From: an uncultured Hyphomicrobiales bacterium
GTDB lineage: Bacteria > Pseudomonadota > Alphaproteobacteria > Rhizobiales > Beijerinckiaceae
DNA length: 64,000 nucleotides
Direction of reading: 5' to 3'
Assembly (NCBI GenBank): GCA_903861645.1
Contig: CAIOVE010000085.1
Span: 1 to 64,000, forward strand
The translations under genes were made by a program, and so were the position numbers. This document shows positions 32,387 through 42,771 of the stretch, one piece after another. How positions within the stretch are numbered: position 1 is the first letter of the stretch; every line of letters starts with the position of its first letter. Under the pieces are notes generated by a model, which saw nothing but the letters and a program-made list of their open reading frames with translations, ran no database searches and was not told the DNA's origin.

Positions 32387-32490
32387 GCAAGCTCCGATGG
32401 CGAACGCGATTGTTGAACGGTATAGTCGCCCCGCGCGCGGTGGCAAACATGCGTCGTCGCGTCTACCCGTCGACCAGCAACGGAGTTCGC

Positions 32491-33396
32491 ATGCATTATC
32501 CGTTTGTTCCCATGCCTCATCGCAAACCGCTCAAATGGCCCAACGGCGCGCGACTTGCGTTGATGATCACCACCAATCTCGAATATTGGGACGAGGTGCG
32601 CGAGAGCGAAAAGCCCTTCTATCCCGGCGGTCCCGGCATCGTCGGCGACACGCTCGCCGGCAATGTCTACGACAACCCGAACTGGACATGGCGCGAATAT
32701 GGCCAGCGCGTCGGCGTCTGGCGCATGTTCGACATATTCGAAAAGGCGGGCGTGCCGACGACGTGCACGATGAACGCCAAGATGGGCCTGAAACGTCGCG
32801 AAATCATCGATTTCGTCAATGCCAAGGGCTGGGAACTGGTCGCGCACAACTTCGTGCAGACGGACCTGTTGACCAATTACGCGTTCGATCCGGAGGGCGA
32901 GCGCAAGATCATCCGCGAGACGCTCGATGTGTACAAACAGGTCGTCGGGCGGCAGGCGAAGGGCTGGCTTTCAAGTTCGTTGCGCAGCACGCTCAACACC
33001 ATCGATCTGATCGCCGAGGAGGGCCTGACCTTCATCACCGACCTACTGAACGATGACCAACCCTATCTCGTGCAGACCAAGTGCGGAAAGCCCATCGTGT
33101 CCGTGCCCTACACATCGGAGGTCAACGACTTCACCGTCTTCATGCGGCAGGGCAAGGATGTGAATGGCGGGTTCGCCGTGTTCAAGGAACAGTTCGACGA
33201 GCTTTATCGCGAGGGCGCGACGAGCGGGCGCATGATGAATATCGGCCTGCATCCGCATGTCATCGGACAACCCTTCCGCATACGCGCGCTGCGCGAATTC
33301 GTCGACTACGCCAAGGGTTTTCCCGACGTCTGGTGGGCGACGCGCGAGGAAATCGCGGAGTTCTACCTCGCCAATCACGCAAGCCACATTGGCTGA
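32491..33396 (+). CDS. polysaccharide deacetylase family protein (PuuE/allantoinase-like)
   Basis: The protein has 301 residues. MPHRKPLKWPNGARLAL at the N-terminus and GLHPHVIGQPFRIRALREFVDYA near the C-terminus place it in the carbohydrate-esterase-4-like family that includes metal-independent allantoinase PuuE and uncharacterised hydrolases. The usual metal-binding His-x4-His pattern is not evident (AHNFVQTD). It is probably a C-N hydrolase of a small molecule rather than a chitin deacetylase. It lies convergent to the ABC transporter operon; linkage to the catabolic cluster is only by position. The ATG follows CGGAG. Confidence 0.78.
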   Translation: MHYPFVPMPHRKPLKWPNGARLALMITTNLEYWDEVRESEKPFYPGGPGIVGDTLAGNVYDNPNWTWREYGQRVGVWRMFDIFEKAGVPTTCTMNAKMGLKRREIIDFVNAKGWELVAHNFVQTDLLTNYAFDPEGERKIIRETLDVYKQVVGRQAKGWLSSSLRSTLNTIDLIAEEGLTFITDLLNDDQPYLVQTKCGKPIVSVPYTSEVNDFTVFMRQGKDVNGGFAVFKEQFDELYREGATSGRMMNIGLHPHVIGQPFRIRALREFVDYAKGFPDVWWATREEIAEFYLANHASHIG

Positions 33397-33403
33397 AACG
33401 AAA

Positions 33404-33430
33404 ATCGGTCGCGGCGACGCCGCGACCGAT
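33404..33430. terminator. hairpin terminator between convergent genes
   Basis: ATCGGTCGCGGC and GCCGCGACCGAT form a perfect 12-base stem with loop GAC, directly after the deacetylase gene and before the end of the ABC receptor gene. AAAA precedes it, which gives a T-tract for the leftward transcript. Confidence 0.75.
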
Positions 33431-33458
33431 CAATTACGTGATCAAGCGCCAGCGGCCA

Positions 33459-34664
33459 TCAGCCGTCGGTGCAAGCGTCGGCGGGATGCTGGTCGAACAG
33501 ATTCCACTTGAGATCCTTGATCTCGATGATGAAGCCCGGCAGGCGCGCGTCGCGGGCGGCGTTGAAGCAGATGTTGTCGCCGGAAACGCCCGTGAAGCGG
33601 ATGCCCTTGAGGGCGTCGCGAATGGCGGTGCGCTCGGCGGCGACCTTGGACGGATCGGCCGTGACCTTCGCCTTTTCCATCGCCTGCTTCAGCAGGTAAA
33701 CAATGTCATAGGCCCAGGCGTCGGTGTGATGCGGGCTCTTTTTGGAGGTCAGGCCGCGCTTGGCGTTTTCCTCCTCGTATTTTTTCGCGAAGGCGCGGGT
33801 CTGGTCCGTGCGATCGGCCCAGAATCCCGCGACGATCAACAGCCCGTCCGCGTCGCGACCAAACAACTCAAGCGCGTTGGGATCGGCGAAAATCTGCGAT
33901 CCGATCACGCGCCCCGTGAAGCCTTGACGGCGTAGTTCCTTGATGACCTTGCCCGCGCTATCGGGCGTGGCCGCGAGCGCGACAACGTCCGGCTTGCGCT
34001 CGAGAACCTGCGAGACTTGCGGCGAGACGTCGAAGCTCTTCATCTGGAACGCGACGGGTTCGCCGATCTTCACGCCCGCCGCCTTGAGAATGCCCGGATA
34101 GAACTGCGTGCCGGAAATGTTGGCCACGCGTTCGTCCGACAGATACATGATCTCGGCGGTGTTGATCGGAATGTTTTTCTTCTTGAGCGTGTTGAGCAGG
34201 CGCGTGAATTGCGTGCCCTCGTCCGCCGTCAGGCGCCATGCATAGGTGTAGTTTCCCGTCAGATTGGGCGCGGACGCCGCGTTCGGAATCTGCACGATGC
34301 CGAGGCGTTCGCCGACGGGAAAGGCGACCGCCGCCTCGCCCGAGGAGAATGGTCCGATCACCGCGAGCGCGCCGTCGTCCTGCGCGAATTTCTGCGTCGC
34401 GGTCGCCGCCTGCTTCGGGTCGCTGCCCGTGTCGTATTTGATGACCTTGAGCTTGTGGCCGTTGATGCCGCCCTTGGCGTTGATCTCGTCGACGGCGATG
34501 TCGACGGATGTTTCCGTCGCCTCGCCAAGGTTTTTCAGCGCTCCCGACTTCACCATGTTCAGGCCGATGGTGATGTCTTGCGCGCGCGCCGCCGACATGC
34601 CCGCCACGGCCAGCGCGATAACGCCAGCCGCGGCGAAAAGCGGTCCATTCAGATGCTTCGACAT
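33459..34664 (-). CDS. branched-chain amino acid-type ABC transporter substrate-binding protein
   Basis: The protein has 401 residues. A signal peptide (cleavage near AARAQD) precedes a type-1 periplasmic-binding domain beginning ITIGLNMVKSGALKNLGEATE. LivJ/K-like receptors bind amino acids but many bind aromatic acids, amides, urea or other catabolic substrates. It is the last gene of a livHMGF-type operon, 22 bases after the ATPase. The start at 34664 follows GGAGGG. Ligand undetermined; the neighbouring catabolic genes suggest a small aromatic or carboxylic acid. Confidence 0.9.
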   Translation of the reverse strand: MSKHLNGPLFAAAGVIALAVAGMSAARAQDITIGLNMVKSGALKNLGEATETSVDIAVDEINAKGGINGHKLKVIKYDTGSDPKQAATATQKFAQDDGALAVIGPFSSGEAAVAFPVGERLGIVQIPNAASAPNLTGNYTYAWRLTADEGTQFTRLLNTLKKKNIPINTAEIMYLSDERVANISGTQFYPGILKAAGVKIGEPVAFQMKSFDVSPQVSQVLERKPDVVALAATPDSAGKVIKELRRQGFTGRVIGSQIFADPNALELFGRDADGLLIVAGFWADRTDQTRAFAKKYEEENAKRGLTSKKSPHHTDAWAYDIVYLLKQAMEKAKVTADPSKVAAERTAIRDALKGIRFTGVSGDNICFNAARDARLPGFIIEIKDLKWNLFDQHPADACTDG

Positions 34665-34686
34665 ATGCGTAACCCTCCGACCTGCC

Positions 34687-35389
34687 TCAAGAATGACCAT
34701 CGCCCAGATAAGCCGCCGCGAGGCGCTCGTCGTCGCGCAAATCGGCGGCCGCGCCTTCAAGCGCCGCGCGTCCGAGTTCCATCACGATGCCCCGTCCGGC
34801 GATTTCAAGCGCCATCTGCGTGTTTTGCTCGACCAGCAGAATGGCGAGACCGTCGCGATGAATTTCAACGATCAGATCGAACAATCGCTCGACCAGCAAG
34901 GGCGAAAGACCCAGGGATGGCTCGTCAAGCATCATCAACCGCGGTCGCGCGAGCAGGGCGCGGCCAATGGCCAGCATCTGCTGTTCGCCACCCGACAGCA
35001 CCGAGGCGGACATGTCGCGTCGCGCCCCAAGGTTCGGGAAACGATCGTAGATACGCTTGATGTCGCGCGCGATATCGCCATCGTCGCGGCAATAAACGCC
35101 CATCAACAGGTTTTCGTGGACGGTCAGGCTGATGGCGATTTGCCGGCCCTCGGGCACGAGCGCGAGACCGCGCCGCAAACGCTGGGGCGGCGAAAGTTTC
35201 GTGATATCCTCGCCAGCGAAGACGACGCGACCGCCCGAGGTCGGCGTCAAGCCCTGCAACGCGCGCAGAAGCGATGTCTTGCCGGCGCCATTGCTGCCAA
35301 GCACCGTGACGATTTCGTCCGCGCCCACGCCGAATGAAAGCGCCTTGACCGCGTGCGTGCGTCCGTGACGCACATCGAGATTTTCGACC

Positions 35390-35400
<11 letters not shown>
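34687..35400 (-). CDS. livF: LIV-type ABC transporter ATPase (LivF-like)
   Basis: The protein has 237 residues. Walker A GSNGAGKTSLL, signature LSGGEQQ, Walker B LMMLDEPSLGL and the switch His region are intact. One of two ATPases that drive uptake through the LivH/LivM channel. The GTG start at 35400 gives the usual LivF length and an 11-base overlap with the upstream ATPase gene; an ATG at 35436 is possible but gives a 47-base overlap. Confidence 0.93.
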
Positions 35401-36170
<770 letters not shown>

Positions 36171-36181
<11 letters not shown>

Positions 36182-37046
36182 GGGGCTCTCCCACGGTGAT
36201 CGCGACGGGTTTCACGGCGGCGGGGCGACGGCGAAAACGCGCGACCAGCGTTCGCGTGATCATGCCCTCCGGCCGCACGACCATCATCAACACGATGGCC
36301 GCGCCGAAAATCACGAAGCGCCAGGAACCGCCGATGCGCAGGGTCTCGGGCACGAGCGTGAAAAAGAGACTGCCGGCGAGCGGACCCCAAGCCGTCTGCG
36401 TGCCGCCGATCAACACGAACAGCAGCACGAAAATGGAGAGCGTGGAATTGAAATACTGCGCCTCGACGAAGCTGAAATGATGCGCGTAAAGCGCGCCCGA
36501 GAGACCCGCCAGCGCCCCGCCAATGGTGAACACCGCGACCTGCATCGCCCGCACGTTGACGCCCATGACCGTCGCGACAAGATCGTCGTCGTGAATGGCG
36601 CGCAAGGCGAGACCGAAACGGGTCGCCATGAGGAAGAACACCAGCAGCGTGGCGAAAACAGCGCCGGCGACCAGCGACGACAAAGGCAAATAATCAGGCA
36701 CGACCATGCCCATCGCGCCGCCGAACAGCGAGGTTTGCAACAGTATGCCGGACACAACCTCGCCAAAGGCGAAGGTGGCGAGCACCATGTAGACGCCCTT
36801 CGTGCGCAGGACAGGAAACGCGAGCAAGAACCCGGTCAGCCCCGAAACCGCCATGGCCGCGGGAATGGTCGCCCAACCCGGCGTCCAGCCCAGATTGGAA
36901 AACGAGGCCGCCGCGTAGGCACCGACGGCCTGAAAGCCCGCGGCGCCAAGGTTCAATTGACCCGCCGCCGCCGTGATGAACACAGCATAGGCGAATATCA
37001 GGTTGATGCAGAGAATGGCGACGATGCCGGAAGCGTATCCACTCAT
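36171..37046 (-). CDS. livM: LIV-type ABC transporter permease (LivM-like)
   Basis: The protein has 291 residues with about eight membrane segments. GQLNLGAAGFQAVGAYAAA near residue 28 is the LivM family pattern; the later AIHDDDLVATVMGVNV is the cytoplasmic coupling loop. It pairs with LivH as the membrane channel. It overlaps livG by 11 bases and follows livH by 25. Confidence 0.93.
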
Positions 37047-37071
37047 GGGGCTATAACTCCGCGGTCGCGCA

Positions 37072-38091
37072 TCACAGCTTCCCCTTGCCCACGGCGACGG
37101 CGCCGAACAGACCTCGCGGTCGCACGATGATGACGATCAGCAACAAGCCCCAGATGATCATCTCGACGGAGTCGCCACCGAAGAAATGGATGGACAATGT
37201 CTCGGTCAGGCCGACGACAAGTCCGCCAAGAATGGCGCCCCAGATGGAGCCGATGCCGCCAAGAACCATCGCGGCGATGGCCTTTGAACCGACATGGTCG
37301 CCCATGAAGGGCGATACGTCGCCGTAATTGACGGTGAACAAGGCCGCCGCGAGACCACACAACAATCCCGTCAACAGGAACAGCACGGGCACGACGCGCG
37401 TCACCTCGACGCCAAGCAGGGAGGCGATCTCGGGGTTCTCGGCGATCGTGCGCAATGCGCGGCCCATGCGCGTGTGCTTCAGCACGAAGGTCAGCGCCGC
37501 GACCACGAGAAGGGCGCAGCCGAGGCTGACGAGTTGCGGCGCGCCGATCACGAGACCGAACAGATGAATGTCGGCCTTGAAAGGCACCGAGAATCGTTGC
37601 GATTCCGAACCAAGCGTCAGGATGACGAGGTGTTCGAATATGAGGAGGAAGCCAAGCGACGAGACGAGGGGAATGGCATGCTCCGTCGCGTCGCCGTGGC
37701 GCGTCTTGAGATAGCGAAACGTAAAACGCTCGACGACCAGCGACGCCGCCGTGGCGACGACAACGCCAGCGATCAACGCGACAAGCCAAGCCCAACCGCC
37801 GGCGAACCCAAGCAAACCTTTTTCACGCAAGCCCCAGGCTATCATGCCCGTCAGCATGAACAGGGATGGAATGGTGAAATTAAGAAAATTGAGCACGCCA
37901 ATCGTCAGCGTGAACGCAACCGCGACGGTGAGATAAATCGCGCCGAGCATGAGGCCGGAAACAATCTGTTGCGCGATCACGCGACCGCCCAGCGCGATCG
38001 CGAGAGCGAAGACCGCCGCGATGACAACCACGACGAGGGCCTTCGTCGTAATGGATTTCATCGGCGCGCCAATCGCCGTTGCGTTTGTCAT
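37072..38091 (-). CDS. livH: LIV-type ABC transporter permease (LivH-like)
   Basis: The protein has 339 residues, with a longer N-terminus than usual and about eight membrane segments. GLMLGAIYLTVAVAFTLTIGVLNF is the conserved LivH entry. It is the first gene of a five-gene operon ordered permease, permease, ATPase, ATPase, receptor. The start at 38091 follows GAGGAAA; the region upstream is shared with the divergent flavin monooxygenase gene. Confidence 0.93.
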   Translation of the reverse strand: MTNATAIGAPMKSITTKALVVVVIAAVFALAIALGGRVIAQQIVSGLMLGAIYLTVAVAFTLTIGVLNFLNFTIPSLFMLTGMIAWGLREKGLLGFAGGWAWLVALIAGVVVATAASLVVERFTFRYLKTRHGDATEHAIPLVSSLGFLLIFEHLVILTLGSESQRFSVPFKADIHLFGLVIGAPQLVSLGCALLVVAALTFVLKHTRMGRALRTIAENPEIASLLGVEVTRVVPVLFLLTGLLCGLAAALFTVNYGDVSPFMGDHVGSKAIAAMVLGGIGSIWGAILGGLVVGLTETLSIHFFGGDSVEMIIWGLLLIVIIVRPRGLFGAVAVGKGKL

Positions 38092-38250
38092 GCCAATGAT
38101 TTCCTCGCGCGCGCGGCGATCCCGGGGGAATGCGAAACCAACGCGGCTGCTGTGTCGATTTGGCAAGGAGCATGCCAGCCAACATCAGCCGGACGACCGC
38201 TCTCGAGAAACGCCGCGACCTTCTGCGACATAAAGCCCTCTCAACACGGC

Positions 38251-38270
38251 GTGGATCTCATTCGATCCAC
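38251..38270. promoter_or_regulatory. inverted repeat in the livH / monooxygenase divergent region
   Basis: GTGGATC and GATCCAC are perfect 7-base arms separated by six bases (TCATTC). The site lies between the transporter operon and the monooxygenase gene and could bind a dimeric regulator. No second copy was noticed. Confidence 0.5.
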
Positions 38271-38297
38271 TTGCGAAGCGCCGGAAAGTCCGTCATG

Positions 38298-38311
38298 TTG
38301 TCCGGACAAAT
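38298..38311. promoter_or_regulatory. candidate GntR operator, copy 1
   Basis: TTGTCCGGACAA is a perfect 12-base palindrome, extended by AT. The 13 bases TGTCCGGACAAAT recur exactly at 41019-41031. This copy lies 47 bases before the flavin monooxygenase start codon. A weak promoter (TTGCGA, 17 bases, CATGTT) ends against it, so binding there would block transcription. Assignment to the nearby GntR regulator is inferred. Confidence 0.65.
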
Positions 38312-38357
38312 GCATTGTGGCGCCTCGGCGCGGACTGTCAAGCGGGATGCTTTCTCC

Positions 38358-39551
38358 ATGCGCAAGAATGTGGTGATCGTTGGCGCCGGCCCTGTCGGGC
38401 TTGTATCGGCATGTCTGTTGGTTGATGAAGGAATTCCCGTCACCATTGTTGAATCCTGCGCCGACCTTCCACGCGATCTGCGCGCATCGACCTTTCATCC
38501 GCCAACGCTCGACATGCTTGGCCGTTTCAACGTCGTGCCCCGAATGGTCGAGCAGGGCCTTGTTTGTCCGACCTGGCAGTTTCGCGACCGAACGGATGGC
38601 GTCGTGGCCACGTTCGAGCTCGACCGATTGAAGGATGAAACGGCGCACCCGTATCGCTTGCAGTGCGAGCAGTGGCGACTGGGCGAAATGCTGCTGGAAA
38701 GGCTCAAGGGCAATCCGCTGGCCGATATCCGCTTTGGCATGAAGGCCACGGAGGTCACTCAAACCGCGGATGAAATCGCGCTTGTCGCCGTCGACGAAAA
38801 GGGCGCTTCCGAGACGTTCACCGGGGCCTTCTGCATCGGCGCCGACGGCATCGGCAGCGTCGCGCGCAAGACGATCGGCGCGGCGTTCGATGGCATCACG
38901 ATTCCCGAGCTTTATCTGACGCTGTCGACGACGTATGACTTCAGCGAGGCCATGCCGGACATTTCCAACATCGCGTATCTCTCGGACCCCGAGGAATGGT
39001 TCGTGTTGATCCGCACGGTCAATGTCTGGCGCGCGCTGTTCCCCGTGAACGCGGAACTGACCGACGAGCACGTGACCTCCCCGCAACTCGCCGAAAAACT
39101 GTTGCAGGGCGCGGCCAAGCGGGATGTTCCCTACGAAGTCCTGCACCGCACCGCCTATCGCGTGCACGAACGGGTCGCCTCGACCTACGTCAGCGGTCGC
39201 CTCGCGATCGCGGGCGACGCCGCGCATGTAAACAATCCGCTCGGCGGCATGGGCCTCAACGGTGGCATTCACGACGCGTATAATCTCGCCTCGACGCTGG
39301 TCGAGATATTCCGGGGCGCGCCACTGGACCTGCTGGGCCGCTACGAGCGGCAACGTCGCAAGGTTGCGCTCGATGTCGTGCAACAAACGACCTTGCGCAA
39401 CCGCGCCATTCTCAACACGCGCGATCCGGCCGCGCGCGCGGCCTACTACGACGAACTTCGCCGCACGGTGGCCAATCCCGTCACCCACAAGGATTATCTC
39501 ATGCGCACGTCGATGATTTCATCGTTGCGCGACGTGGCGAAGATCGCCTGA
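38358..39551 (+). CDS. FAD-dependent aromatic-type monooxygenase (class A)
   Basis: The protein has 397 residues. Dinucleotide-binding GAGPVGLVSACLLVDEG at the N-terminus and the second FAD motif RLAIAGDAAHVNNPLGGMGLNGG place it with PHBH-like hydroxylases, related to 3-hydroxyphenylpropionate and 6-hydroxynicotinate monooxygenases. It uses NAD(P)H and O2 to hydroxylate, or in some members to open, aromatic rings. The start at 38358 matches the FAD motif position. It is followed by a terminator and lies under a candidate GntR operator. The substrate is unknown. Confidence 0.87.
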   Translation: MRKNVVIVGAGPVGLVSACLLVDEGIPVTIVESCADLPRDLRASTFHPPTLDMLGRFNVVPRMVEQGLVCPTWQFRDRTDGVVATFELDRLKDETAHPYRLQCEQWRLGEMLLERLKGNPLADIRFGMKATEVTQTADEIALVAVDEKGASETFTGAFCIGADGIGSVARKTIGAAFDGITIPELYLTLSTTYDFSEAMPDISNIAYLSDPEEWFVLIRTVNVWRALFPVNAELTDEHVTSPQLAEKLLQGAAKRDVPYEVLHRTAYRVHERVASTYVSGRLAIAGDAAHVNNPLGGMGLNGGIHDAYNLASTLVEIFRGAPLDLLGRYERQRRKVALDVVQQTTLRNRAILNTRDPAARAAYYDELRRTVANPVTHKDYLMRTSMISSLRDVAKIA

Positions 39552-39556
39552 TGGAC

Positions 39557-39580
39557 GCGCGCCCAAAAGGGCGCGCTCTT
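39557..39580. terminator. hairpin terminator between convergent genes
   Basis: GCGCGCCC and GGGCGCGC pair around AAAA, followed by TCTTCTCC. It lies just after the monooxygenase stop and before the end of the isomerase-like gene. Confidence 0.7.
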
Positions 39581-39583
39581 CTC

Positions 39584-40330
39584 CTAGAATTCCTCGAGAA
39601 GGCGGCCAAAGCCCTCGATCTTGTCCTGAATGCCGTTGGCGCGCAGCGCGTGCCAGTAAGTGGCCGTATTGATGGCGATAACCGGCTTGCCGAGCCACAT
39701 CTCCGCGGCCGCCGCCAGCTTCACCATCGAGAGATTGGTGCCAACCTGCACGATGGCGTCGACATCGTCGCCGTCGAGCTTGCGGAGCGCGTCGCGCAGG
39801 GTCGCGGTCGTCTGTTCCGCGATGTTCGTCCACGAGCGGCATTGCAGGGGAATATCACGCGCGATGCTGAAACCCATGTCGGAGAAGTAGCGCCCGACCT
39901 CGGTGTTCATGACGGGCCAGTAGGGCGACAGGATGGAGATGCGCTTGACGCCGCCATAAGCGCGCAAGGCCGCGGCGCAGGCGTGACTGCCGATGCTGAT
40001 CTTGACGCCCGAGACATCCTCGACCTTGGCCTGAAAGGCGTCGGCGCCGCGGCCGCCCTCGAAGAACGTCACCGCCGACATGCCCATGACGAGATAGTCT
40101 GGCTTGCAGGTCATGACGCTTTTGACGGCGTCGACCACGTTCTCCGCGATGGTGTTGGCGCCCGCGCGGAAACTCTCGTTGCTGACCGCCTGCGCGTCCG
40201 GCGTGAAGATGCGACTGTAGTGATTGGTCACGCCGACGGGGCGCATCGCCTCGAAATCGGGCTGAACGATGGTGTTCGTCGAAGGGCCGAGGACACCGAA
40301 TTTCCTGCGCCAGCCTTGCACGTCTCGCAT
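39584..40330 (-). CDS. maleate isomerase / Asp-Glu racemase superfamily protein
   Basis: The protein has 248 residues. FGVLGPSTNTIVQPDFEAM is the maleate cis-trans isomerase family start. Catalytic cysteines of that superfamily are expected near MGMS (82-85) and VGTN (196-199), but neither has a cysteine; the only Cys are 75, 118 and 164. It therefore may not follow the classical two-Cys mechanism. It lies downstream of the isochorismatase-like gene in the same operon, recalling the maleamate to maleate to fumarate steps of nicotinate breakdown. Confidence 0.78.
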   Translation of the reverse strand: MRDVQGWRRKFGVLGPSTNTIVQPDFEAMRPVGVTNHYSRIFTPDAQAVSNESFRAGANTIAENVVDAVKSVMTCKPDYLVMGMSAVTFFEGGRGADAFQAKVEDVSGVKISIGSHACAAALRAYGGVKRISILSPYWPVMNTEVGRYFSDMGFSIARDIPLQCRSWTNIAEQTTATLRDALRKLDGDDVDAIVQVGTNLSMVKLAAAAEMWLGKPVIAINTATYWHALRANGIQDKIEGFGRLLEEF

Positions 40331-40351
40331 GTTGATCTCCTTGTCCAGTGT

Positions 40352-40966
40352 TCAGGCGGTCGCCGCGACGACCTCGTCCGAGGTCATCAGGTCGGCGTAT
40401 TTCTGGCCCATGTCGAAAAGGTTCGCCTCGTGCGGACCCATGGCGCGATCGCCCACGCAGTCGGTGACGACAATCGTTCGCAAATTGTACGCCACGGCGT
40501 CGACAACGGTCGCGCGCACGCAACCGGACGTGGTGCAACCCGTCACGAGCAGGGTATCGACCTGGTTCCACAGCAACCAGGAAGCGAACTCGGTGCCGAA
40601 GAACGCCGAGGCCTGCCGCTTGCGGATGATGAGTTCGCCCTCCGCGGGTCGCAATTCCTCGACGATCTGGCTCAGCGGGCTGGTTTCGGTGAGCTTGCGC
40701 AAGCCCGGCGCCTTGCGGGTGAAGGCGCCCGCGTCCGAGCCGTCGTCGGCGTAGACAACGCGCGTATGGGCGATGGGCCAGCGACGGGCGCGGGCGACAG
40801 TCAGCAGGCCAACCGTGCGATCGATGGCGGGCTTGATGTTGCCGCCGCCAAAGTGCTCCGGATCGGTGAAGCCAAGAACGAAATCGACCATGACCAGCGC
40901 CGGCTTCCGGCCAAGGCCAATGGACTGCGCGAAGCCCTGTCGGGCGTAGATATCGAGTTCACTCAT
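40352..40966 (-). CDS. isochorismatase-like cysteine hydrolase (maleamate/carbamoylsarcosine amidase type)
   Basis: The protein has 204 residues. The triad can be placed as Asp28 (MVDFVLGF), Lys116 (IIRKRQ) and Cys149 (GCTTSGCVRAT). The family hydrolyses amides such as maleamate (NicF), N-carbamoylsarcosine, nicotinamide or ureidoacrylate. It has the early helix IYARQGF seen in N-carbamoylsarcosine amidase relatives. First gene of a leftward operon whose start is 52 bases from the second candidate operator. Confidence 0.87.
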   Translation of the reverse strand: MSELDIYARQGFAQSIGLGRKPALVMVDFVLGFTDPEHFGGGNIKPAIDRTVGLLTVARARRWPIAHTRVVYADDGSDAGAFTRKAPGLRKLTETSPLSQIVEELRPAEGELIIRKRQASAFFGTEFASWLLWNQVDTLLVTGCTTSGCVRATVVDAVAYNLRTIVVTDCVGDRAMGPHEANLFDMGQKYADLMTSDEVVAATA

Positions 40967-41017
40967 GCGTGTTCCATCGGCTCGATCCAGGACGCCGGTC
41001 ATGTTGGCATATAAAAT

Positions 41018-41031
41018 ATGTCCGGACAAAT
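41018..41031. promoter_or_regulatory. candidate GntR operator, copy 2
   Basis: ATGTCCGGACAAAT contains the 10-base palindrome TGTCCGGACA and is identical over 13 bases to copy 1. It sits in the divergent region between the hydrolase and the lyase genes, next to an AT-rich stretch ATATAAAATAT that may hold a -10 box. It can control both directions. The regulator is inferred, not shown. Confidence 0.65.
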
Positions 41032-41133
41032 CTTTCCGTTTGCCGAATATCGCGCCATAATGGCTGTTGACCCCGCCGACGATATCGGGGAAATGCGATC
41101 CAGCATCGCGAACCAGCGACATAAGGCAGGAAA

Positions 41134-41997
41134 ATGGCCAACCCCATCTTGCGTCAACACATCGAGGCACGCACCTTCGTCGCCGCTCCCGGCGTTTACG
41201 ACATGATCTCGGCGTTGATCGCCGACCGGATGGGCTTCAAGGCGCTTTATGTCACGGGCTATGGCACGGTCGCCTCGGCGCTTGGCCTGCCGGACGCCGG
41301 CCTCGCAAGTTATTCGGAAATGATCGAGCATATCGGGCGCATCGCCGAGATGACACGCACGCCGGTGATCGCCGACGCCGACACTGGCTACGGCGGACTG
41401 CTGAATGTCCGGCACACCGTGCGGGGTTACGAGAAGGCGGGCGTCTCCGCCATGCAGCTCGAGGATCAGGAATTCCCCAAGAAGTGCGGCCACACGCCCA
41501 ACCGGCGCGTCATCGCCACCGCCGACATGGCCCGCAAGATCCGCGTCGCCGTCGACAGCCGCTCCAGCGCCGACTTCCTGATCATCGCCCGCACGGACGC
41601 GCGCACGTCGCTTGGCCTCGACGAGGCGCTACGGCGCGGCGAGGCCTACGCCGAAGCGGGCGCCGACATCATCTTCATCGAATCGCCCGAGAGCGAGGAA
41701 GAGATCGCGGCCATCGCCAAACGCATCGGAAAGCCGCTGATCGCCAACATGGTCAATGGCGGTCGCACGCCGATGCTGCCAGCCGCCCGGCTGGCGGAGC
41801 TCGGTTTCGCGGCGGCTATTTTCCCGGCCGTGGGTTTCCTCGCGACCGCGCAAGCCTTGACCACCGCCTACGCCGATCTGCGCGACACCGGCACGACCTC
41901 GCCGGAAACGCCGATGTATTCATTCGCGGAATTCAACGAACTCATCGGCTTCAAGGATGTGTGGGAGTTCGAAAAGCGCTACGCGGAAACAGAATAG
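41134..41997 (+). CDS. isocitrate lyase / PEP mutase superfamily lyase (2,3-dimethylmalate lyase-like)
   Basis: The protein has 287 residues. The Mg-binding region ADADTGYGG (from 80) and the KKCGH loop (116-120, catalytic Cys118) mark the C-C-cleaving lyases of this superfamily, such as 2-methylisocitrate, 2,3-dimethylmalate and oxaloacetate lyases, rather than C-P mutases. It would cut a hydroxy-dicarboxylate to two small acids. Divergent from the hydrolase operon and 33 bases ahead of the GntR gene. Confidence 0.87.
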   Translation: MANPILRQHIEARTFVAAPGVYDMISALIADRMGFKALYVTGYGTVASALGLPDAGLASYSEMIEHIGRIAEMTRTPVIADADTGYGGLLNVRHTVRGYEKAGVSAMQLEDQEFPKKCGHTPNRRVIATADMARKIRVAVDSRSSADFLIIARTDARTSLGLDEALRRGEAYAEAGADIIFIESPESEEEIAAIAKRIGKPLIANMVNGGRTPMLPAARLAELGFAAAIFPAVGFLATAQALTTAYADLRDTGTTSPETPMYSFAEFNELIGFKDVWEFEKRYAETE

Positions 41998-42030
41998 TCC
42001 ATTCCCGTCCCGATCATCCAGACGGCGGCC

Positions 42031-42771
42031 ATGAACAAGGTTGAACCCATCGGGCACATGCCCCGCTACCTGCAAATCCTCGCGACGCTCCGCGCCCGCG
42101 TGGAGGATGGCGTTTACCCGCTCGAAACCAGCCTGCCGCCCGAAAGCGAGCTTTGCGAGGAATTTGGCGCCAGTCGCTACACCATCCGCGAGGCGATGCG
42201 CCGTCTGGTCGAGCAAGGCATGGTGCATCGGCGACAGGGATCGGGCAGCGTGGTCGTGGCCGCCCAGCCACAGGCGCGCTACGTTCATTCCCTGTCGTCA
42301 CTCGCCGATCTCTTCCAGTTCGCCCTGTCGACGCATTATGAAATCGTCGGCGTCGAATCAGTCGCGTTGTCGGAAGACCGGGCGGCGCTGGTCGGCGGCG
42401 AGGCGGGGTCGACGTGGAACCTCATCAAGGGCGTGCGGCGGATGCACGCCGGCGGCGAGGTCGTCTGTTACATTCATTCCTACATCCCCAAGCGCCTGTC
42501 GCGACTGGTCGGCGAACTGCCGGGCTGCGTCGGGCCGTTCTATGCGTTGCTGTCCAAGCGGGCGCGCGAGGATATCATCGAGGCGGATCAGGAAATTCGC
42601 GGCGAGCCCATGACGCGGGAAATGGCCCGCGCGCTCGGCCGCAAGCCGGGCGATCCGTCCATCTGCGCGCTCAGGCGCTACACATCGGCGAAGGGAACGC
42701 TGATTACGTCCTTCAACTGGCACATCGCGGAAAATTTCCTGTTCCAGATGAAGCTTCAAAAAAACCTGTAG
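42031..42771 (+). CDS. GntR family regulator with UTRA effector domain (HutC type)
   Basis: The protein has 246 residues. The N-terminal winged helix (about 11-78) includes LPPESELCEEFGASRYTIREAMRRLVEQGMVHRRQGSGSVV. The C-terminal half (about 90-240) is a UTRA-type ligand domain with RRMHAGGEVVCYIHSYIP. It is a probable repressor relieved by a pathway intermediate. It sits at the end of the rightward lyase operon and is the likely reader of the TGTCCGGACAAAT sites. Confidence 0.9.
   Translation: MNKVEPIGHMPRYLQILATLRARVEDGVYPLETSLPPESELCEEFGASRYTIREAMRRLVEQGMVHRRQGSGSVVVAAQPQARYVHSLSSLADLFQFALSTHYEIVGVESVALSEDRAALVGGEAGSTWNLIKGVRRMHAGGEVVCYIHSYIPKRLSRLVGELPGCVGPFYALLSKRAREDIIEADQEIRGEPMTREMARALGRKPGDPSICALRRYTSAKGTLITSFNWHIAENFLFQMKLQKNL

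Follow-up and report, generated by a model that had tools for sequence, protein, structure and literature searches.

Two conserved palindromes as predicted operators of a HutC-type GntR/UTRA regulator in a gene cluster of an uncultured Hyphomicrobiales bacterium

Two palindromes in divergent control regions

We analysed two palindromic sequences in a 64,000-nucleotide stretch of an uncultured Hyphomicrobiales bacterium (contig CAIOVE010000085.1 of assembly GCA_903861645.1, positions 1 to 64,000 of the forward strand), the whole of which is referred to as the window. With a probability of about 0.9, both palindromes serve as operators for a HutC-type GntR/UTRA regulator whose gene lies at 42031-42771 (+ strand), and which is the predicted inducer-released repressor of four transcription units. 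An exact sequence check located the 13-mer TGTCCGGACAAAT on the + strand at 38299-38311 and 41019-41031, as the first-pass annotation had reported. Its claim of a palindrome also held: predicted operator 1 (TTGTCCGGACAA, 38298-38309) was a perfect palindrome over 12 base pairs (bp), and predicted operator 2 (ATGTCCGGACAA, 41018-41029) had a perfect 10-bp core with one outer mismatch. Both were identified by the sequence and palindrome checks; operator 1 was further backed by an equivalent site 5' of the monooxygenase orthologues in relatives, and operator 2 by alignment and by junction counts. Site 1 was placed between the genes for LivH (− strand, ATG at 38091) and a flavin adenine dinucleotide (FAD) monooxygenase (+ strand, ATG at 38358), and site 2 between the genes for an isochorismatase-fold amidohydrolase (− strand, ATG at 40966) and a lyase (+ strand, ATG at 41134). 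The reported distances to the start codons of 47 (monooxygenase), 52 (hydrolase) and 103 bases (lyase) were reproduced. The annotation had further expected one small regulon with at least three promoters. This was supported by the relatives, in which the corresponding gene junctions carry the palindrome itself or one closely similar to it. The regulon probably comprises four promoters, since the operon of a Liv-type transporter shares site 1.

The host genome comprised 4,182,615 bases in 108 contigs, the window's contig being designated C85. The exact 10-mer core TGTCCGGACA occurred at five places in this genome, compared with one for the reversed control, and two of these copies lay 2.7 kb apart in the window. 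Only the window's two copies stood before genes. The genome-wide search for stray copies that had been suggested as a check thus returned three other exact cores, none of them before a gene. The third core (L001) was within a long open frame, porin-like by eye, and the fifth (L003) within another long open frame. The fourth (L002:1489-1522; C66 near 4069) lay at the middle of a long, perfectly matched inverted repeat flanked by two convergent open frames and had the appearance of a terminator-like hairpin. The pattern WTGTCNNGACAW was found at 10 places genome-wide (reversed control, 3), with a CG centre only at the two sites of the window and a CA centre at one more. The CA-centred copy, TTGTCCAGACAA, was located at C79:58441-58452 (L140:1501-1512), between open frames that resembled, by eye, those of a Nudix hydrolase and a TetR-type regulator, and may be either a further target or a product of chance. 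The evidence for the sites from the host genome alone is modest, and it is the relatives that decide.

Conservation of the sites in relatives

Relatives were gathered by the regulator protein, never by the motif. The first set consisted of 297 genomes of the order, with a regulator match in 28 (host genome included), and 18 regions were then examined. The second set consisted of 80 loci (1.39 Mb), the best 80 of 519 from a named collection, among which the nearest regulator homologue, with 73% identity, belonged to a Beijerinckiaceae metagenome-assembled genome; this makes an origin of the window in the order Hyphomicrobiales probable. Six centres were allowed in the core and junction counts (CG, CA, TG, TA, CT or AG), chosen after the centre frequencies had been seen; on this basis, a site was present at the divergent lyase-isomerase junctions of 11 out of 11 loci and at 8 of the 14 divergent LivH-monooxygenase junctions found among 29 loci with the monooxygenase. 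All 11 permuted half-sites scored 0 at both junction types. Among the six core-less LivH junctions, three (L060, L065 and L071) had a 9-10/12 match at the usual distance. The 320 bp preceding the monooxygenase gene were scanned in 28 cases including the window, the rows for L057 and L067 being dropped for incomplete upstream DNA, and 19 of the 28 regions matched in at least 10 of 12 positions at −60 to −120, with two more matching in 9 of 12 there. When the divergent region around site 2 was aligned between the window and L054-L057, the clearest conserved block was TGTCCGGACAAA; L057, in which no lyase gene was detected, had TGTCCGTACAAA. The conserved block reads as a phylogenetic footprint. 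Three of the 18 regions from the first set were clusters of the same kind, with the transporter, monooxygenase, isomerase-like, amidohydrolase and PuuE-like genes in common and the lyase in two of the three. In two of these three, L036 and L038, one-mismatch sites were present before the monooxygenase, and in L038 also before an isomerase-lyase pair.

Motif counts over the 80 loci pointed in the same direction. The core TGTCCGGACA was found in 58 copies versus 1.57 expected from base composition and was present in 29 loci, and the runner-up among the 30 palindromes built from these half-site letters reached 17 copies. Taken together, the cores TGTC(CG/CA/TG/TA/CT/AG)GACA accounted for 95 copies in 47 of the 80 loci, with a single copy for the reversed control; 27 of the 29 monooxygenase genes in this survey had 300 bp of upstream sequence. 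The flanks were T/A-rich, giving a consensus of approximately AATTTGTCCGGACAAATT, and the centres of WTGTCnnGACAW were dominated by CG (52), CA (21) and TG (10). T-flanked cores with a CG, CA or TG centre were enriched 12- to 37-fold, whereas G-flanked cores, with G at −5, were not enriched. The TA-centred form TGTCTAGACA was absent from the 80 loci versus 0.5 copies expected, which makes its absence weak evidence.

Sites at most 150 bp apart, in L077, L085, L088, L093, L094, L099 and L117, fell into five pairs with a spacing of 44-51 bp and four with one of 95-101 bp, a pattern suggestive of cooperative pairs or of a preferred phasing. In the Mycobacterium/Mycolicibacterium homologues (L117, L128, L129 and L133), a CG- or TG-centred site preceded the regulator match by about 1.7-1.85 kb; the operator type is therefore not limited to Proteobacteria.

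The link between the sites and this particular regulator was drawn from co-occurrence. The 16-mer ATTTGTCCGGACAWAT was present in 5 of the 297 genomes including the host, all five among the 28 with a regulator match and always on the regulator's contig, although one of them (G181) is apparently the genome from which locus L101 comes, so that this set and the one that showed the flanks are not entirely independent. In G252 and G170, ATTTGTCCGGACAWAT lay no more than 80 bp from the regulator match. Seven copies of the core were found in L088 among genes for a TRAP transporter, MmgE/PrpD, an amidase and a coenzyme A-transferase, beside a regulator homologue. Since the same core accompanied the regulator amid other enzymes there, the regulator is implicated rather than a pathway-specific neighbour. 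It is conceivable that the sites are real and are operators of another regulator sensing the same pathway, the GntR gene being a mere neighbour: at least one relative (L071) carried a second regulator in its cluster, of the FCD-type GntR class, and 33 of the 80 loci were without any core within the DNA examined. We consider this explanation improbable, as the core goes with the same GntR clade in the quite different enzyme cluster of L088 and stands next to the regulator match in G252 and G170, and the site geometry and recognition residues (described below) suit a HutC-type protein.

Several observations weigh against the assignment of the palindromes as operators of this regulator, among them the core-less loci just mentioned. 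Seven of the 28 monooxygenase upstream regions (L054, L056, L062, L069, L080, L082 and L097) were without a convincing site at the usual distance, L062 having a 10/12 match at −249, and the closely similar cluster L037 showed no one-mismatch site at either of the positions occupied in L038. Three AT-rich palindromes (2-6 copies) exceeded TGTCCGGACA in the ratio of observed to expected copies, and GATCGCGATC had 30 copies in the 80 loci. The bare 12-mer TTGTCCGGACAA was present in 6 of the 28 genomes with a GntR match and also in 26 of the 269 without one, and its reversed control was likewise present in many genomes (controls were not tallied). A single copy therefore means little, and the bare 12-mer, being too weak as a discriminator over the 297 genomes, was replaced by the junction tests. 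At most two mismatches being allowed, a scan of the window returned two matches, i.e., both sites, when shuffles averaged 1.79, and it was rejected as evidence for the sites since the matches were not above the shuffles. Sigma-70-like hexamers were detected at site 1 on the LivH strand only (TTGACA-16-CACAAT at 38341-38314, − strand, adjoining the site; one found versus 0.1 in shuffles) and not at all at site 2, and promoter occlusion therefore stays a proposal. The loose scan, together with the genomic copy at the centre of a hairpin between convergent open frames, would suit a chance repeat, or an RNA hairpin or terminator. This is hardly credible, given that the sites keep their position in relatives, where the permuted controls scored zero, and given the location of both copies between divergent genes, not at gene ends.

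Protein family and DNA recognition

The earlier claim that a GntR/UTRA regulator is encoded nearby was borne out by the Pfam matches, which comprised a GntR winged helix-turn-helix (PF00392, E 1.2e-19, residues 13-75) and a C-terminal UTRA domain of the chorismate-lyase fold (PF07702, E 2.4e-10, residues 101-226). The best NCBIfam model was TIGR02018 (HutC; 75.1 bits versus a cut-off of 220), and all 23 listed models, including HutC, TreR, PhnF, Rv0792c-type and others, were below their cut-offs. The solved structure nearest by sequence was that of NagR (YvoA; E 8e-16). According to PMC4494728, operators of the HutC subfamily follow the consensus NyGTMTAKACNy, with GT and AC mostly four bases apart, and position 39 of the helix-turn-helix correlates with the two central bases of the operator. 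Both window sites read GT-CCGG-AC and thus had the GT-N4-AC geometry. The system resembles the HutC subfamily in its GntR winged helix with UTRA domain, in a GT/AC palindrome spaced by four with C/G adjacent, and in sites within divergent regions. It differs in its CG centre (CA and TG also occurring in relatives), the usual centre of HutC-type operators being TA.

In the NagR-DNA complex, as described in PMC4333415, Arg48 contacts G-4, Arg38 contacts G-5 and Gly69 anchors the wing. When aligned with NagR, the window regulator had Arg49 in place of Arg48, Ser39 in place of Arg38, Tyr50 in place of Met49 and Gly70 in place of Gly69. The conserved Arg49 was accompanied by G at −4, and the replacement of Arg38 by Ser39 was accompanied by T at −5. 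Like NagR of Bacillus subtilis with its dre-sites, the window regulator thus retains Arg48, the wing glycine Gly69 and G at −4; unlike NagR, it lacks Arg38, its predicted operators have T at −5, and its neighbours are not amino-sugar genes. The trait of NagR/DasR, in which Arg38 and Arg48 read the successive G-5 and G-4, is not found in the window regulator, and none of the 81 aligned proteins had Arg at the position of Arg38. Tyr50 presumably corresponds to position 39 of the helix-turn-helix in PMC4494728, to judge from the Pfam match. The differences from the NagR operator thus appear to fall at positions that are read by, or correlated with, residues changed in the window regulator. These two base changes in the operator, paralleling two residue changes, may serve as a simple case for the GntR recognition code. 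For the residue equivalent to Met49 (residue 50), at which the pattern used in gathering the 80 loci allowed only Y, H or F, CG-centred loci had Tyr/His in 23 cases and Phe in 4, and loci with CA or asymmetric centres had Phe in 18 and Tyr/His in 3. A coupling between residue 50 and the centre is not claimed: a tree built without that column gave three supported independent pairs, and the residue followed in 0 or 1 of them.

A dimeric repressor is most likely because of the protein family and the promoter-like match beside site 1. That the protein physically binds the sites, that it represses and does not activate, and what kind of compound induces it are inferences. The regulator dimer would place one winged helix on each half-site (TTGTCC and GGACAA). 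As long as no inducer is present, the dimer would keep the Liv-type transporter and the monooxygenase repressed via operator 1, and the amidohydrolase-isomerase and lyase-gntR operons via operator 2, the latter including its own gene. Its release would follow when the UTRA domain binds a pathway compound, a small acid or amide. Alternatively, the regulator may bind as an activator or a dual regulator, and the site positions about 50-110 bp before the start codons would suit either sign. This is unlikely, given that effector-free NagR, the nearest solved relative, blocks transcription (PMC4333415), and that the sole promoter-like match would set the palindrome at the presumed transcription start of LivH.

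The gene cluster and its putative pathway

The predicted targets of the regulator were encoded on both sides of the two predicted operators. The FAD monooxygenase (38358-39551, + strand; Pfam FAD_binding_3), a predicted target of operator 1, was closest in the PDB to PnpA (9.6e-56) and HspB (4.1e-43). Divergent from it over operator 1 were the open frames of a Liv-type (branched-chain-amino-acid-type) ABC transporter (33459-38091, − strand), the probable fourth target. They encoded LivH (37072-38091) and LivK (33459-34760, start uncertain), both recognised by family matches, and LivM (36171-37046), LivG (35390-36181) and LivF (34687-35436), which were named by eye. Predicted targets of operator 2 were the amidohydrolase and the lyase. 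The amidohydrolase gene (40352-40966, − strand) encoded an N-carbamoylsarcosine amidase-like protein (Pfam Isochorismatase 5.9e-35) with 3ot4 (5.4e-68) and 3uao as the nearest PDB entries. It was followed after 21 bp by the gene for an arylmalonate decarboxylase (AMDase)/maleate isomerase-like protein (39584-40330, − strand; Pfam Amdase 2.4e-14), which matched AMDase and maleate isomerases in the PDB weakly (3e-8 to 6e-8); these two genes probably share one operon. The lyase (41134-41997, + strand) belonged to the phosphoenolpyruvate (PEP) mutase/isocitrate lyase superfamily (Pfam PEP_mutase 2.2e-48), and its nearest PDB entries were the petal death protein (8.5e-59) and methylisocitrate/dimethylmalate lyases (2,3-dimethylmalate lyase, 2.3e-48). 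The GntR gene had the orientation of the lyase gene and began 33 bp beyond its end; the two are probably co-transcribed, and autoregulation from site 2 is therefore expected. A PuuE allantoinase-like hydrolase was encoded at 32410-33396 (+ strand); it matched NCBIfam TIGR03212 at 6.2e-49, under the cut-off of that model, and the allantoinase PuuE in the PDB at 6e-37, with no Pfam family. No operator was found before this gene in the window by the scan with up to two mismatches, although the gene belongs to the cluster in many relatives.

The entries 3ot4 and 3uao represent maleamate amidase, and NicF, NicE and NicC are names of maleamate/nicotinate-type catabolic enzymes. The cluster resembles this type in that a flavin monooxygenase, an isochorismatase-fold amidohydrolase and a maleate isomerase-like protein occur together in the window, and it differs in having a PuuE-like hydrolase and a petal-death-protein-like lyase instead. 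No ring-cleaving dioxygenase or deformylase was detected among the eight window proteins scanned, and no search was made elsewhere. In a fungal nicotinate pathway, a PuuE-related cyclic imidase is followed by an amide hydrolase (PMC9304392). A plausible guess at the substrate would be a cyclic imide or N-heterocycle. The monooxygenase, PuuE-like imidase, maleamate-type amidase and maleate-type isomerase would open such a ring, and the alkylmalate-type lyase would act last. The predicted regulon would join the transporter, monooxygenase, amidase, isomerase and lyase in one pathway and would narrow the candidates for the inducer.

An exact-string literature search for TGTCCGGACA and four 12-mers returned, in the text available to it, nothing recognised as a bacterial operator, and logos in figures would escape such a search. 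The accessible parts of the papers on Rv0792c and MoyR contained no operator sequence, and no literature combining maleamate, maleate isomerase, GntR and monooxygenase was found. No name for this HutC branch was found in the searches, and the operator and regulon prediction made for it from sequence is well founded. More tentatively, and with the odds somewhat against it, the regulator may represent a large alphaproteobacterial HutC-type clade with Mycobacterium outliers and a shifted code (no Arg38 and T-5; Tyr/His or Phe for Met49 and a CG/CA centre), with the branch of the window governing an undescribed ring-opening pathway. Given the predicted operator consensus and regulon, the target genes of a widespread HutC branch could be recognised by sequence in many alphaproteobacterial clusters. 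The gene set at 32410-42771 (Liv-type transporter, monooxygenase, PuuE-like hydrolase, isochorismatase-fold amidase, isomerase-like protein and lyase) recurred, wholly or partly, in many Alphaproteobacteria.

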